Notes under the pieces: generated by a model
Seen by the model: only the letters and a program-made list of their open reading frames with translations
Database searches by the model: none
Told to the model about the DNA's origin: nothing
Assembly (NCBI GenBank): GCA_017452265.1
Contig: JAFTMS010000004.1
Location: 1 to 64,000, forward strand
Length of the DNA stretch: 64,000 nt
From: Bacteroidales bacterium
GTDB lineage: Bacteria; Bacteroidota; Bacteroidia; Bacteroidales; UBA932
Reading direction: 5' to 3'
Shown here: positions 782-39,186 of the stretch, piece after piece
Layout of the letters: every line of letters begins with the position of its first letter
Numbering within the stretch: position 1 is the stretch's first letter
Made by a program: the position numbers and the translations under genes

Positions 782-1371
782 ACAAAATAATACTATCCGT
801 GAGTTTATTCTGTTTATGTCTTGGCTTGGCATACCTTCATGTCGAGAAGAAAATGACCAGATTTGAACTTCCGCAGGGTGAATTGAAATGGTCTGATGTC
901 AAGACGGAGAATGCGAGGATGTGCATTCCTGCTGCGTTTACGGATATTGACGGAAAGATTTATGGGTCATATCGGATCAGTGGTAAGACTCATAAGAATA
1001 ATAAGATGATGTTTAAAGTGTCTTTGAAGGGCGACACATTCTTCATCAGCAGGAAATGGATGAGTGATAATGGATTTCAGCAACTGACTCTTGTTTACAA
1101 TTCACATCCTATGAAGTTCAGAGATTCTCGTAAGACCATACGTAGGACTTTATGCAAAGATGCGAATGGAGCTTTCATATTGGAGTCTAACTATCCGATG
1201 ACCATGACTGATTTTGCTGTGGAGTGCAGCAAGCGCAGCACCAATGCAACTTACTTGGATATGGGAGAATATGGCTATGGCTACATCAAGAAGAATCGTT
1301 TGACAAGCCCGCTGTACATTAGGGGATTCTTTACCAGACAGAAACAAACGAATTGGATATATATAGAATAA
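769..1371 (+). CDS. Hypothetical protein with N-terminal membrane segment
   Basis: A 200-residue protein whose first ~22 residues (IILSVSLFCLCLGLAYL) form one hydrophobic segment without a clear signal-peptidase site, so it is probably membrane anchored facing outward. It begins inside the end of the preceding gene (13-base overlap), which suggests translational coupling. The rest is a basic, beta-rich sequence with paired cysteines (RMCIPA, TLCKD, AVECSK). I recognise no family. The pair could be a small island-borne envelope or immunity module, but nothing in the sequence proves that. Confidence 0.6.
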   Translation: MATLNKIILSVSLFCLCLGLAYLHVEKKMTRFELPQGELKWSDVKTENARMCIPAAFTDIDGKIYGSYRISGKTHKNNKMMFKVSLKGDTFFISRKWMSDNGFQQLTLVYNSHPMKFRDSRKTIRRTLCKDANGAFILESNYPMTMTDFAVECSKRSTNATYLDMGEYGYGYIKKNRLTSPLYIRGFFTRQKQTNWIYIE

Positions 1372-1671
1372 AAGCGGTAAATGACTTTGTGGGTCAAATA
1401 CCGATTTCTTAGTTCTAGAATATCCCTTTGGGCATAAATAGTTTTAGAATACTTAAAGGAATCATTTGACGTGTTCCGGATGTTCTCTTTAGTAATTTCT
1501 TGCTATCCATAATTCAAAAATTTTTGAGTGAAACATAAATTCATATACTCAATTATATGAAGCACAGGGGGTCAAGCAAAATGGAATTAAGCAAAGATTG
1601 GATCGGGAACATCAGGCGTTTCTAATCATCAGATTTGGCATGGAAGAATCGCTAGAAGATAAGCTATACAA
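1372..1671. other. AT-rich gap without a recognised gene
   Basis: About 300 AT-rich bases between the hypothetical pair and the terminator of the convergent toxin-antitoxin genes. Only very short open frames are present and none has a credible start context. I see no repeat, RNA gene or promoter that I would defend. Confidence 0.5.
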
Positions 1672-1703
1672 CAAAAAATCACCTCCGTTTCCGAAGGTGA
1701 TTC
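1672..1703 (-). terminator. Rho-independent terminator of the mntA-hepT operon
   Basis: Read on the minus strand, AATCACCT and AGGTGATT form an 8-bp stem closed by a CG-rich top, followed directly by a T run (TTTTTTG). It lies 24 bases beyond the stop of the small RelB-like gene, so it ends the minus-strand operon. Confidence 0.85.
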
Positions 1704-1727
1704 TGCTATTCCTTGAACAAATCTGGA

Positions 1728-1892
1728 TTAGCCTAAAATCTGCTTAAGTAACTCCTCTGCATTTTCTGCCTTATACATTCTGCCTTTTTCGATGTCCTCT
1801 AATCCGAGTTCTATTCCGTTCTTCTTTTTCGGAGCAGATGAAATCTCCCTACCCATATTCTTGGCAAGTTTTTTCAGGAAAGCCATAATCAT
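1728..1892 (-). CDS. Small RelB/DinJ-like protein downstream of hepT
   Basis: A 54-residue frame begins one base after the hepT stop codon (ATG at 1892-1890) and ends at TAA (1730-1728), just before a strong terminator. The C-terminal part (LEDIEKGRMYKAENAEELLKQ) resembles the toxin-binding tail of RelB/DinJ-type antitoxins common in Bacteroidales. The DNA-binding N-terminus is replaced by a short basic stretch (FLKKLAKNMGREISSAPKKK). No RelE/YafQ toxin lies nearby, so it may be an orphan, a truncated antitoxin or a third member of the HepT-MntA operon. Position and spacing make it likely to be translated. Confidence 0.6.
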   Translation of the reverse strand: MIMAFLKKLAKNMGREISSAPKKKNGIELGLEDIEKGRMYKAENAEELLKQILG

Positions 1893-1893
1893 A

Positions 1894-2241
1894 TTACATT
1901 GTCTCAAGAAGTTGTTCTATTGAGGTCTGGAGCGGTTTAAGGTCTTGTTTCACGACATTCCAAAGGAATTTGAAACTTACCTGATAGTAATCGTGAACCA
2001 AGATGTGTCTCATTCCGCTTATCAGATGCCATTCTACCTCAGGGTGAGATTCCTTGAAATCTTGCGACATCTTATAAACGGATTCACCGATACACTGCAC
2101 ATTATAAGCTACTGCATGACAACAGAGTTTATCGTTTTCAAACTGCTCATATGAAACATATTTTGCAGTGAACTCGAAAACGTTGTCAATGGATTTGAGA
2201 ATCAGCTCCAGATGAGCCTTGTCATTAACTCGCCCTTTCAT
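1894..2241 (-). CDS. hepT: HepT-like ribonuclease toxin (HEPN, DUF86)
   Basis: A 115-residue helical protein with the HEPN RNase motif RX4HXY, seen as RHILVHDY near residues 78-85. HepT toxins are known to cleave RNA and to be silenced by poly-AMPylation of the motif tyrosine by the partner MntA. The gene overlaps the upstream nucleotidyltransferase gene by 17 bases, the usual arrangement in this family, which supports a real toxin-antitoxin pair. Its length is normal for DUF86. Both genes share the canonical promoter at 2547-2578 and the terminator at 1672-1703. A non-toxic HEPN role cannot be excluded from sequence. Confidence 0.88.
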   Translation of the reverse strand: MKGRVNDKAHLELILKSIDNVFEFTAKYVSYEQFENDKLCCHAVAYNVQCIGESVYKMSQDFKESHPEVEWHLISGMRHILVHDYYQVSFKFLWNVVKQDLKPLQTSIEQLLETM

Positions 2242-2521
2242 AGATCAGCTTTCTATCTCTGTTGGCACTTTCTACAGCAAATGGCAAAAGGGAGCCATCT
2301 TCCACCAAGTCCACCTTTCTGCCGAATATATTTTCCAATTCATACTGAATACGAATATATCCGATCAGTGAAACTTCCGCTTTTTCATCGAATACAACAA
2401 TGATATCTACATCACTCGTAGGAGTCTGTTCGCCACGGGAGAACGATCCGAATACCCATGCCTTCAATACAGGCTGAGTACTCAGATATTCTCTTACTTT
2501 TTGAATTACATTAGCATCCAT
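2225..2521 (-). CDS. mntA: MntA-like nucleotidyltransferase antitoxin
   Basis: A minimal nucleotidyltransferase of about 98 residues. It carries the GSX10DXD signature (GSFSRGEQTPTSDVDIIV), whose two aspartates bind metal, plus a third acidic residue in KVDLVED. MntA-type enzymes neutralise HepT by transferring AMP to its active-site tyrosine. ATG codons at 2539, 2533 and 2521 are in frame. I prefer 2521 because the promoter implies a transcript start near 2541 and because MDANVIQKV matches the usual family start; 2539 would be nearly leaderless. It overlaps hepT by 17 bases. Confidence 0.85.
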   Translation of the reverse strand: MDANVIQKVREYLSTQPVLKAWVFGSFSRGEQTPTSDVDIIVVFDEKAEVSLIGYIRIQYELENIFGRKVDLVEDGSLLPFAVESANRDRKLIYERAS

Positions 2522-2546
2522 AGCGTCAATCATTCGCATATCTTCT

Positions 2547-2578
2547 GCAAAATTAAGATTTTCCGTTGATTATGCAAA
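2547..2578 (-). promoter_or_regulatory. Bacteroidales-type promoter of mntA-hepT
   Basis: On the minus strand TTTG (2578-2575) is separated by exactly 19 bases from TAATTTTGC (2555-2547), an excellent match to TTTG-N19-TAnnTTTG. Transcription would start near 2541. It lies back to back with a plus-strand promoter at 2598-2629. Confidence 0.75.
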
Positions 2579-2597
2579 TTTAAGGCTATGGGAAATC

Positions 2598-2629
2598 TTG
2601 CAGGACAAAATAAGAATAGTTAAATTTGC
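2598..2629 (+). promoter_or_regulatory. Bacteroidales-type promoter of the 51-residue gene
   Basis: TTG at 2598-2600, a 20-base spacer, then TAAATTTGC at 2621-2629. The predicted transcript start is about ten bases before the ATG at 2647. It diverges from the mntA promoter. Confidence 0.6.
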
Positions 2630-2646
2630 ATAGATACAGACGCATT

Positions 2647-2802
2647 ATGAAATTGATTGAAGATAAGCAATCTTTGGATATGGAAAAGGATTTTATCCTT
2701 AGAAGCATCAAGACAGGATATGAGGAGATTAAAGATGCTGAAGTTACAGGGCAGCAGTTGCCAGTGCTAGATAATTTGATTGCTGAGCTCAAGAACTTTT
2801 AG
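2647..2802 (+). CDS. Small acidic helical protein (51 aa), unknown
   Basis: The frame ATG (2647) to TAG (2802) encodes 51 residues beginning MKLIEDKQSLDMEKDFI and predicted mostly helical, with heptad-like leucines near the end (LPVLDNLIAELKNF). It is too short to identify, but it has its own consensus promoter and is divergent from the HepT-MntA operon. Short helical proteins like this are often antitoxin relatives; that is inference only. No toxin gene follows, because the next feature is a broken gene. Confidence 0.5.
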   Translation: MKLIEDKQSLDMEKDFILRSIKTGYEEIKDAEVTGQQLPVLDNLIAELKNF

Positions 2803-2902
2803 AAATAGTTTTTTCAGGTAGCGGACATCACGTTGCCACTTTATAGATTTATAGTTCTTTTATTTATTGACTAGGAGTTTGTTTTCTGATATAAGGCAAT
2901 GA

Positions 2903-3121
2903 TTTGTAGGACATTATCAAAACTGCTACAATCTGCTTGGTTTCAGAATTGAGAGAGTGACCGACACTATGGGTCGTATGCACTCTGACGCACAGTTCGC
3001 AGGATCATCATCAGTTCCGGCACACGTTGAAATGATGGGATTCCTAGGCATCGGTAACAACCCTATGGTAGGTTGCACCGTTGCTTGTGCGGTGGACGTT
3101 GCTACTGCGCTAAATAAGTAA
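2903..3121 (+). pseudogene. 3' remnant of an unidentified conserved gene
   Basis: After an in-frame TGA (2900-2902) the frame stays open to TAA at 3119-3121. From about 2942 it reads like a well-conserved enzyme terminus (IERVTDTMGRMHSDAQFAG, then VEMMGFLGIGNNPMVGCTVA, ending VATALNK), and a good terminator follows. There is no start codon or N-terminal domain. The composition changes from AT-rich to balanced near 2930, so the gene was probably cut when the left-hand island arrived. I do not recognise the family. Confidence 0.5.
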
Positions 3122-3142
3122 TCTGTCAGGTTACATACAATT

Positions 3143-3176
3143 AAAGACTCTCGAAACTGCTCCGGGAGTCTTTTTT
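3143..3176 (+). terminator. Rho-independent terminator after the gene remnant
   Basis: AAAGACTC (3143-3150) pairs with GAGTCTTT (3166-3173) and a T run continues to 3176. It sits 22 bases after the stop of the remnant, which supports the idea that the remnant is the true end of a former gene. Confidence 0.75.
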
Positions 3177-3183
3177 CGTTATT

Positions 3184-3279
3184 GGGTATCGCGTGCATTT
3201 TTCCCAACAAAACGCTCGCGATACCCTCATTTTTCAGGGTATCACGCGCACTTTCCCGGCAAAACTGCGCGCGGTATCT
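3184..3279 (+). repeat. Two tandem copies of a ~43-bp palindromic unit
   Basis: Unit 1 starts GGGTATCGCG (3184-3193) and closes with its exact reverse complement CGCGATACCC (3217-3226). Unit 2 starts GGGTATCACGCGC at 3237 and ends near GCGCGGTATC at 3279. Both carry the same inner segment with variants of TTTCCC and CAAAAC, and the unit starts lie 53 bases apart. They fill the gap between the terminator and the SDR gene promoter. Confidence 0.7.
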
Positions 3280-3319
3280 ATCCAACATGCGTCAGCCGGA
3301 CCTGCGTCAAAAGGGAATA

Positions 3320-3353
3320 TTGATACAATGTCACATCTTTTCGCTATATTTGT
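3320..3353 (+). promoter_or_regulatory. Promoter of the SDR gene
   Basis: TTG at 3320-3322 and TATATTTGT at 3345-3353, spacer 22. The implied transcript start near 3359 leaves a 20-base leader before the ATG at 3380 and rules out the much longer upstream start in the same frame. Confidence 0.6.
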
Positions 3354-3379
3354 CGTCAAACGAACAAAATCACAAGAAG

Positions 3380-4141
3380 ATGAAAAGACTTGAAGACAAT
3401 GTCACCATCATTACCGGTGGCGGAAAAGGAATCGGCTTCGGACTTGCCGAAGCTTTTGCAGAGGCAGGTTCAAATCTGGTCCTGACAGGAAGAACCGAAT
3501 CAAGACTAGTAAAGGCAAAGGAGAATCTGGAAAGCAGATACGGTGTCAGGGTGCTCCCTATCGTAGCTGACGGCGCCGATGAGAATGCGATACGCAATGT
3601 CGTCGCCAAGACCATCGAGACCTTCGGAAAAATCGACACACTGGTCAACAACGCCCAGGTATCCAAATCAGGAATGCCTCTTGTGGAGCATACCAAGGAG
3701 GATTTTGACCTTGCAATCTATTCAGGCCTGTATGCCACGTTCTTCTATATGCGCGAGTGCTTCCCTTACCTCAAGCAGACAAAGGGTTCGGTCATCAACT
3801 TCGCTTCAGGAGCGGGACTCTTCGGCAAGCTGGGACAGGCGTCATACGCAGCGGCAAAGGAAGGCATCCGAGGCATGTCAAGGGTAGCTGCGGCCGAATG
3901 GGGGCCGTACGGAGTGAGGGTCAACGTGGTCTGTCCGCTGGCAATGACAGAGAGCCTCCAGCAGTGGAAGGAGCACTTCCCTGAATTATACGAAAAGACC
4001 ATACAGGGCATTCCGCTCGGTCACTTCGCCGACCCTAAGGCGGACATCGGACGCGTATGCGTATTCCTTGCCAGTGAAGATGCCGGATACGTCACAGGAG
4101 AGACCATCACCCTCCAGGGCGGCAGCGGACTCAGGCCATAA
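3380..4141 (+). CDS. Short-chain dehydrogenase/reductase (SDR family)
   Basis: A 253-residue classical SDR oxidoreductase. The N-terminal nucleotide motif TGGGKGIG is at residues 12-19, the structural NNAQ motif (normally NNAG) near 91, the catalytic serine in VINFASGAG and the YxxxK pair in SYAAAKEG. The C-terminus GYVTGETITLQGG is typical of the FabG-like branch. The cofactor preference and substrate cannot be read off. The longer open frame upstream is rejected because it would overlap the repeats and the promoter. It converges with the DNPH1-like gene seven bases away. Confidence 0.92.
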   Translation: MKRLEDNVTIITGGGKGIGFGLAEAFAEAGSNLVLTGRTESRLVKAKENLESRYGVRVLPIVADGADENAIRNVVAKTIETFGKIDTLVNNAQVSKSGMPLVEHTKEDFDLAIYSGLYATFFYMRECFPYLKQTKGSVINFASGAGLFGKLGQASYAAAKEGIRGMSRVAAAEWGPYGVRVNVVCPLAMTESLQQWKEHFPELYEKTIQGIPLGHFADPKADIGRVCVFLASEDAGYVTGETITLQGGSGLRP

Positions 4142-27974: not shown

Positions 27975-28974
27975 TCAGTCTAATAACGCTACAGTTTCTC
28001 GTTTTATATCATCATCTATAGCCCTATACCGGCTGAAAGCCCTGCTTCCCTCTGTATGACCGGTCATAGAACTGATTATCGAGGGATCTTTGATGTTTTT
28101 ATACAGATTGCCAATGAATGTTCGTCTTGCAAGATGGCTGCCGGCGACTTCGCATATCGGCACTTTTCTTTCAAGCCTTGTGATCGAGTCGGCGACAGAT
28201 ACGCATCTCAATATGCCGGCCGATTTCAGAAGCTTTCGGATGGCTCGGTTGTATCGCGGCAAAGACACAAAGGGAAGCAACATGGTTCCGTTTGCATTCT
28301 GATAGCGTTCGACTATGCTCATTGCAGTGACATTGAGCGGTATACGTATGATTTTGGTAGAGCCGTTCCTTGTTTTGGATGCGATGTATTCTATATTCAT
28401 GCTGTTTATGTTCTGAGCAGAGAGCCTTATGAGGTCACCGTAACGACATCCGATACAGCATTGAAATATGAATACATCCCTCTGCCGAGCAAGAAAATCA
28501 TCCCCGGCAAGATCAAGCCGTTCCAGTCTTTTCCGTTCTTCCAATGTCAGATAATATGGGGTTCCGTAAAGATCTGAGCATATGTGATAGTTGGCGAACG
28601 GAGAACTTTTGATGTAACCCCTGTCTTCACACCAGCGGAAAAAAGTGCGCAGTTTCCGCATCAGGTCATTTACCGTATTCACGCCTCTTAAATAGGTCTT
28701 CATGCCTTTCCTCAACATACCGTTCCCAATCATTATGGCATTCTCGTTTTTCAGATAATGAGCGAATTCCTGTATTGTTGCCGAGGAAAAGCTGTTCATC
28801 TTGTGGGAAAGGCTGCGGTAGTGCAGGTATCTGCCGAAAGTGTTTGAGAGTGAAACATAAAGACGGCGTCTTTGTTCGGAAATCTGCCGTGAATCAAGAA
28901 ATTCGGCAAAAGCACGCTCAAAATATATAAAGATGCAAACGGGATTTACGCCTGCTGCTTTTCCGACTTCCGTT
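27975..28974 (-). pseudogene. Tyrosine recombinase (integrase), N-terminally truncated
   Basis: From ATG 28799 the frame codes 274 residues of a phage-type integrase: catalytic Arg in GCRYGDLIRL, Lys near KTRNGSTKI, HLARR box, a GHTEGS box and the nucleophile Tyr in RYRAID. In-frame coding sequence continues upstream without a start codon (FERAFAEFLDSRQISEQRRR, then RYLHYRSL), which is clearly the core-binding domain. It runs into a 24-bp repeat at 28946-28969 and to the stop codon of the ATPase gene. The arm-binding domain (~100 residues) is missing. The short form may still be made, but it is probably inactive. Confidence 0.75.
28946..28969. repeat. 24-bp direct repeat (left copy), candidate attachment site
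   Basis: This 24-base sequence differs by one base from 30437-30460, the last eight codons of the GlpT-like gene (KSEKQQA and stop on the minus strand). The single difference is synonymous (AAG for AAA). It sits at the 5' break of the integrase gene, as expected for an att site formed by integration at a gene's 3' end. Confidence 0.7.
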
Positions 28975-38871: not shown

Positions 38872-38945
38872 GGCCCCATAGCTCAACTGAATAGAGCATT
38901 TGACTACGGATCAAAAGGTTACAGGTTTGAATCCTGTTGGGGTCA
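38872..38945 (+). tRNA. tRNA-Arg (anticodon ACG)
   Basis: A complete 74-base cloverleaf. The acceptor arm GGCCCCA pairs with TGGGGTC plus discriminator A. The D arm contains AGCTCAACTGAATAGAGC, the anticodon arm TTTGA-CTACGGA-TCAAA gives ACG, and the T arm contains GGTTTGAATCC. CCA is not encoded. The next base begins the multi-helix element. Confidence 0.95.
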
Positions 38946-39074
38946 CAAAGTTTTGAGAGTTCCCGATATCAATCGGGAACTTCTTGTATATCTCTGTGCC
39001 CGTTGGGAGCTTGCTCACATACGGGTGCGGAGATATACAAAAATCGAAGGGCTCGCCCTTCGATCAAAACTTTG
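38946..39074 (+). ncRNA. Compact four-helix element directly after tRNA-Arg
   Basis: The outer stem P1 pairs CAAAGTTTTG (38946-38955) with CAAAACTTTG (39065-39074). Inside are three adjacent hairpins. P2 is GTTCCCGAT-atca-ATCGGGAAC (38959-38980). P3 is a long hairpin with base TTGTATATCTC / GAGATATACAA (38984-38994 / 39030-39040) and upper stem CCCG / CGGG. P4 is ATCGAAGGGC-tc-GCCCTTCGAT (39043-39064). Junction linkers are only one to three bases. G-U pairs in P3 on the plus strand would be C-A mismatches on the other, which favours a plus-strand RNA. There is no T-run terminator, so a folded DNA site remains possible. Confidence 0.6.
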
Positions 39075-39186
39075 GGTACAAGACCTTTCCCAACACAAGG
39101 ATGTCGGCGCAAAGCGACGAAAACCTGCCTTAAATAGACGCCGTCACTTTTCCTCCATGAATTTCTCCTGTTTTACATATTGAATA

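Follow-up and report, generated by a model that had tools for sequence, protein, structure and literature searches.

Cloverleaf-folded units behind tRNA genes of Bacteroidota as candidate non-autonomous insertion elements

The window, a 64,000-nt stretch of a Bacteroidales contig, contains a tRNA-Arg(ACG) gene followed by a compact folded element (Table 1). The sequence and positions of the fold (38946–39074) are as reported in an initial annotation of the window, and its closing stem and three hairpins are recovered by folding. Its placement directly against the tRNA also holds, the tRNA ending at position 38946 according to ARAGORN and at 38945 according to the Rfam tRNA model. The neighbouring gene, described earlier as a decapitated permease, indeed encodes an ABC-2 permease without its N-terminal part, the PF12698 match starting at profile position 140 of 347. 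A 274-aa frame on the minus strand (27975–28799), some 10 kb away from the tRNA, overlaps a weak PF00589 match (28.8 bits).

As RNA, the plus strand of the element folds at −75 kcal/mol, compared with −30.2 ± 3.7 for 200 dinucleotide shuffles (z = −12.0). The single-stranded DNA fold of 38946–39074 has a z of −12.5, and the minus strand folds more weakly (−65.6; z = −10.8). The middle hairpin is longer than first given, with about 20 bp and a short tip stem. Likewise, the 129-base fold stands, but the unit to which it belongs is longer at both ends and runs from 38930 to about 39126. Its left boundary lies inside the tRNA, in a 17-bp core (38930–38946) that intact family members carry a second time at their right end, while its right part comprises an inverted copy of the core and then a further hairpin. 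The inverted copy reads CCCAACA-ca-AGGAT against CCCAACAGGAT. Of the right core copy there is only a trace, which fails a repeat test that allows two mismatches. The window copy is old and its right repeat is eroded, and it is probably immobile because this repeat has decayed.

Table 1. Parts of the unit at the tRNA-Arg(ACG) gene of the window.
Feature	Position	Strand	Basis
tRNA-Arg(ACG), putative insertion target	38872..38946	+	ARAGORN; Rfam tRNA 38872–38945, 64.4 bits
Left core, 17 bp, T-loop A58 to tRNA end	38930..38946	+	Repeat test in family
Closing stem, 5′ strand (CAAAGTTTTGA), partner 39064–39074	38946..38956	+	RNA and ssDNA folds
Hairpin 1, terminator-like in family; T run weak in window	38957..38982	+	Folds
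Long middle hairpin, about 20 bp and tip stem	38984..39040	+	Folds; covariation helices 4–7
Conserved tip of middle hairpin (GGGAGCTTGCTC; loop G-CTTG-C)	39005..39016	+	Pattern searches
Hairpin 3	39043..39064	+	Folds
Closing stem, 3′ strand (TCAAAACTTTG)	39064..39074	+	Folds
Inverted core copy CCCAACAcaAGGAT, complementary to ATCCTGTTGGG of this tRNA bar two extra bases	39089..39102	+	Sequence; family test
Right-end hairpin (AGGATGTCGGCGCAAAGCGACGAAAACCT)	39098..39126	+	Sequence; family comparison
Putative eroded right core copy (AAACCTGCC vs AATCCTGTT)	39121..39129	+	Right-core position in relatives

No Rfam family could be assigned to the element, in line with the initial annotation, which had recognised none. 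At the gathering cut-off of Rfam 15 the window yields the tRNA only, as do the loci of five relatives, and in 18 further loci searched with E up to 1 there are, besides tRNA, sub-threshold matches only. BLAST found no second copy in the window's genome (assembly 84% complete). Apart from the window copy, its output consists of the palindrome itself and four 14-base matches, because the sequence of the fold diverges while the structure stays. The covariance model described below has one match in the same assembly.

Copies near other tRNAs, for which the initial annotation had suggested a search, do exist and form a family located mostly behind tRNA genes. The 30 tRNA-Arg(ACG) loci of related genomes, window included, mostly carry one simple hairpin behind the tRNA. 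Among them, L028 and L033 have a closing stem and three hairpins as in the window, with a different sequence, and L029, which has the window-type start, is cut off by a contig edge shortly inside it. Of 400 genomes in the genus, 5 have this start (TCACCAGAGCARAGC). A hairpin-tip pattern matched 19 of 199 genomes of the family, and 14 of these 19 loci lie at whole or partial tRNA ends and have an alike fold, L049 being the least clear. The covariance model (R1) was built from 17 sequences and does not include hairpin 3, which is seen by folding single elements. It matches 60 of 149 genomes of the bacterial family, in 13 of 24 genera, and, at a stricter cut-off, 6 of 197 other genomes of the phylum. 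Loci were taken for 90 places with family matches, and about 25 weaker places were left out. In a set of 94 loci, from which the duplicate sources L046 and L052 and 22 other-strand rows are excluded, 81 matches lie directly behind a tRNA on the same strand (start within 120 nt; largest distance 57 among the matches listed) and represent eleven isoacceptors. A junction of three or more branches is formed at 88 of the 94 loci, and both junction and tRNA are present at 75. With the named genomes included, tRNA-linked elements number 138 and span 20 isoacceptors. Units of this kind at tRNA 3′ ends are widespread in Bacteroidota and have the same predicted four-armed fold despite differing sequence.

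The tip motif of the middle hairpin was found at least 123 times in genome contigs, in at least 120 stretches, which replaces a first count of 82. Among the 123 matches listed, 91 lie behind a same-strand tRNA (within 300 nt), seven near a tRNA on the other strand, five at a partial T arm and one at a contig edge. The other 19 have no tRNA by this test, and some of them show visible tRNA remnants. Carriers among the matches listed include Robiginitalea, Sediminibacterium, Crocinitomicaceae, Chryseobacterium, Niabella, Prevotella and Bacteroidales, as well as some Lachnospiraceae and one Lactococcus. In the Lachnospiraceae (L162, L205, L217, L171, L242 and others) the motif is situated beside tRNAs or alone, with other surrounding arms; these copies could be true relatives, the result of transfer, or misbinned contigs. 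A phage origin was considered and rejected, just one viral contig having the tip motif.

Conserved copies and covariation, on which the initial annotation had made its finding depend, are both present, so the finding survives. Of 32 pairs in an alignment of 118 R1 matches (115 distinct), 31 have changes at both positions. The alignment is biased towards the model to which it was fitted, and 22 of its rows are the same loci on the other strand. Doubly changed cells number 997, compared with 293 ± 17 in shuffles, and the score of 0.666 falls to at most 0.137 when the pair partners are slid. Of these two controls, the slid one is the more trustworthy, since shuffles do not keep relatedness. The aligned sequences clearly indicate that the closing stem and the side hairpins are kept by compensatory change. 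When copies at the same tRNA within a genus are compared, 136 pairs are doubly changed and 101 of them remain paired; single changes in such copies count against this, 121 breaking a pair and 48 keeping one. Sequence similarity is highest for the same tRNA within a genus and depends on the tRNA to a greater extent than on the genome, as would suit copies that are old, seldom move or are inherited.

Covariation is common to RNA and single-stranded DNA and does not tell them apart. The middle-hairpin arms of 131 elements contain 202 G-T and 113 A-C mismatches, besides 471 of other kinds. In 118 of 138 elements the plus strand has the lower folding energy. The excess of G-T over A-C and the better plus-strand fold together favour a single plus strand. 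The G-U pairs of this strand, initially read as a sign of RNA, do point to a single-stranded plus strand but not to RNA specifically. The same excess speaks against a cruciform that would act alike on both strands.

The tip loop is GCTTGC in 98 of 134 elements tallied. Triloops of the cGNAg type are very stable in DNA. They close hairpin 3 in 42 of 132 elements and occur in 4 of 207 N-free control hairpins elsewhere in the loci, while the corresponding figures for GNRA loops are 1 of 132 and 29 of 207; control and element loops were gathered by different methods in these comparisons, and related elements are not independent. Among 129 hairpin 1 loops there are 22 GNRA tetraloops and 19 triloops, types that would fit an RNA terminator. 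These loop data support DNA for part of the fold, without proof. A run of four or more T in the 5′ half is found in 124 of 138 elements, and an A run in 116 of 138. The earlier statement that no terminator follows is correct for the end of the element, but in the family hairpin 1 and the subsequent T run look like the terminator of the tRNA. It is this hairpin, and not the whole element, that has the make-up of an intrinsic terminator (a GC-rich hairpin and a T run), weakly so in the window.

The right boundary of the unit is marked in part of the family by a second copy of the core. The 17 bases from A58 to the tRNA end are repeated downstream, with at most two mismatches, at 15 of 142 loci, compared with 3 of 1420 trials using the core of another isoacceptor; an earlier test with a narrower T-loop pattern, which this version replaces, gave 10 of 143 loci. 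At these 15 of 142 loci the tRNA 3′ end thus flanks the unit as a direct repeat on either side, as in integrative elements. In 13 of the 15, the right copy lies 165–278 bp away, and the six exact copies are at 165, 178, 182, 201, 206 and 255 bp. From left core to right core, the unit mostly measures 165–206 bp. At L229 and L230 the copies are 1388 bp and 1213 bp away, and an ordinary-looking protein frame is located between them; these may be gene-bearing units, or the repeats may be due to chance. When the filled site L038 is compared with an empty site in genome G210, the tRNA and a like terminator align once the unit is omitted. In genome G660, units of 177 and 178 bp are arranged head to tail with cores between them. 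At L053, several tandem right-end hairpins (GGGAATGCACAG..CGAGCACAATCCC) lie behind the cloverleaf without further cloverleaves. Paired direct repeats such as ATTGTCCCAAAATTGTCCC are found behind the tRNA-Arg terminator in numerous genomes of the genus (L011, L013, L032, L017, L026 and other loci), and are perhaps arm sites of integrative elements.

In many units, a complement of the tRNA end precedes the right core, beside the right-end hairpin. This inverted copy fits its own tRNA better than tRNAs for other amino acids (t = 5.5). For 87 of 133 elements the fit exceeds the mean of the controls and for the other 46 it does not, so the trend is an average and not universal. A cruder earlier test was weak, with 72 of 138 above. 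Close relatives at three Ser tRNAs (L099 with L088, L110 and L068) have inverted copies that track each tRNA. The right end would in this respect resemble a folded attC-type site with a core and complement arms, its complementarity appearing to track the tRNA at which the unit resides. A copying of any tRNA end anew at each jump is not favoured, as similarity follows the tRNA, yet close relatives at different Ser tRNAs do occur.

A standard unit offers no room for an integrase gene of its own, and no such frame was found within it. Integrases are found outside the unit, across the core, beside some copies without a tRNA. Genes with PF00589 were located in ten genomes, and in G521, G427 and G453 they lie about 1 kb upstream of tRNA-less copies, on the other strand. 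Eight tRNA-less copies were inspected, and L062, L071, L092, L094 and L142 have an integrase-like frame pointing away from the unit, while none was found at L093, L118 and L040. The frames at L062 and L071 are confirmed by Pfam; the partial frame at L092 matches no Pfam family. At L062, L071 and L092 the tRNA core lies between integrase and unit, so this core is also used by larger integrative elements. In G521 (contig C12, 80284–100398; L091, L062), two related cloverleaf units are about 20 kb apart, and the tRNA core at the right end has an integrase next to it; this stretch is probably an integrative element in tRNA-Ser(CGA).

A second type of enzyme is encoded in G660, where the tRNA-Ser core array of cloverleaf units includes a unit with the same first hairpin and a GIY-YIG frame (PF01541, 62.6 bits). 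GIY-YIG matches in this genome number 25, UvrC included, and several are in tandem behind or beside tRNAs. Nine genomes of the family have 12 such matches, nine of which are in UvrC-like frames of 498–670 aa; the single match in the window's genome lies in a frame of 615 aa. At L328 (G660, contig C34, 6000–10600), positions 929–3824 hold a 364-bp unit repeated 7.9 times in tandem, and every repeat has its own small GIY-YIG frame together with a duplicated 3′ part of a tRNA. GIY-YIG units also occur behind tRNA-Asp, tRNA-Asn and tRNA-Met (L330, L332 and L337; G660 and G737), and the repeated tRNA part in these seems to start near the anticodon and not at A58. Overall, no own gene and no obligatory partner was found for the cloverleaf units, and integrases and GIY-YIG enzymes are candidate movers.

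The best explanation is probably that the element is a non-autonomous insertion unit of tRNA T loops, the single plus strand of which folds. A recombinase or nuclease supplied in trans would join the unit at the T-loop core, and the right-end hairpin (inverted core, spacer and core) could serve as a folded single-strand attachment site like integron attC. Recognition, protection or replication of the single plus strand may take place in the four-armed form, and hairpin 1 would replace the tRNA terminator displaced by insertion. Counting against insertion are the right copies, found at only 15 of 142 loci, the few R1 matches outside the family, and the persistence of folds whose right repeats have decayed, a hint of a function in place. 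A more specific version, in which gene-free units with an inverted tRNA-3′ copy move as folded plus strands between T loops as integron-like minimal cassettes, with the almost universal T arm of tRNAs as attachment site, is tentative and rather less than an even prospect. Of the two roles suggested in the initial annotation, a folded recombination site of a lost element comes closest, given the 17-bp repeats, the empty site and the tandem copies, but a small complete unit present in many genomes is not the remnant of one large lost element. The other, an RNA co-transcribed with the tRNA, is compatible with the wobble pairs, but hairpin 1 would shorten most transcripts.

In its fuller form, this second role would be that of a structured trailer RNA, transcribed with the tRNA, freed by tRNA 3′ processing and able, for example, to pair through its inverted copy with the 3′ half of the tRNA. 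The position always downstream and on the strand of the tRNA in the linked cases (81, and 91 of the tip-motif matches listed), the plus-strand wobble excess, the lower plus-strand energy in 118 of 138 elements, the G(CUUG)C tip and the complementarity to the own tRNA would all suit such an RNA. So would the persistence of the fold after the right repeats have decayed. It is nevertheless unlikely, as hairpin 1 and the T run (124/138) should stop most transcripts early, the hairpin 3 loops are not of the GNRA type (1/132), and direct repeats, empty site and tandem units are left without explanation. Another reading, which we consider quite improbable, is a bidirectional terminator or insulator serving the host, with hairpin 1 acting towards the tRNA side, hairpin 3 towards the opposite side, and the long stem arising incidentally from T and A runs that face each other. 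The frequency of these runs (124/138 and 116/138) and the simple terminator hairpin found at the same place in most related genomes without a unit agree with it, but termination needs neither closing stem, conserved tip nor inverted tRNA copy, and the covariation of the middle stem reaches far beyond the runs. A spread of the units through the cutting of tRNA genes by small homing endonucleases of the GIY-YIG type, the cloverleaf being the gene-free partner of GIY-YIG units, has the GIY-YIG unit inside the G660 cloverleaf array and the 25 matches of that genome on its side. It is very improbable for the family, given that other GIY-YIG units of G660 duplicate the tRNA from further upstream and that the frames of the nine family genomes are mainly UvrC-like.

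The preferred reading, a non-autonomous insertion unit, has partial parallels in known systems. Integrative elements of the T-loop class of tyrosine recombinases likewise have their target in the tRNA and repeat the stretch from T loop to tRNA end, and integrase-bearing elements at the same core are found beside tRNA-less copies. The cloverleaf units differ in having no gene or integrase, in being as a rule under 210 bp and folded throughout, and in their inner inverted core. Integron cassettes, which end in an attC site that folds as a single strand, share the small unit, the junction at the core edge and the tandem arrays, and would also be matched by the putative right-end hairpin of core and complement, whereas the cloverleaf units have no evident IntI and no attC motif by eye, their cargo is the fold, and their target is the tRNA T arm. 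RtT repeats lie behind E. coli tyrT and, like the cloverleaf units, include the tRNA 3′ end, but they are confined to one E. coli locus and are not known to form a four-armed fold; apart from the tRNA, the window has no Rfam match. MITE, REP and BIME repeats are also short, gene-free, palindromic and non-autonomous. Unlike these, the cloverleaf units are tied to tRNA 3′ ends and have three side hairpins and a 17-bp repeat whose position in the tRNA is fixed.

As far as could be searched, the family is undescribed. No description of such units was found in the accessible parts of the open-licence literature, preprints being outside its scope, and the parts consulted of PMC9897764 and PMC2647930 make no mention of them. 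If the units move, they would be among the smallest site-specific mobile elements, and their target, the T arm of tRNAs, is a site as conserved as few others in cells. Along with integron cassettes, they would then be the second case in which covariation reveals selection acting on one folded strand of DNA. An action as RNA would instead make them a large unannotated RNA family linked to tRNA genes in gut, rumen and marine bacteria. In both cases, partial copies of tRNA 3′ ends make up many of the right ends and may be a pitfall for tRNA annotation.
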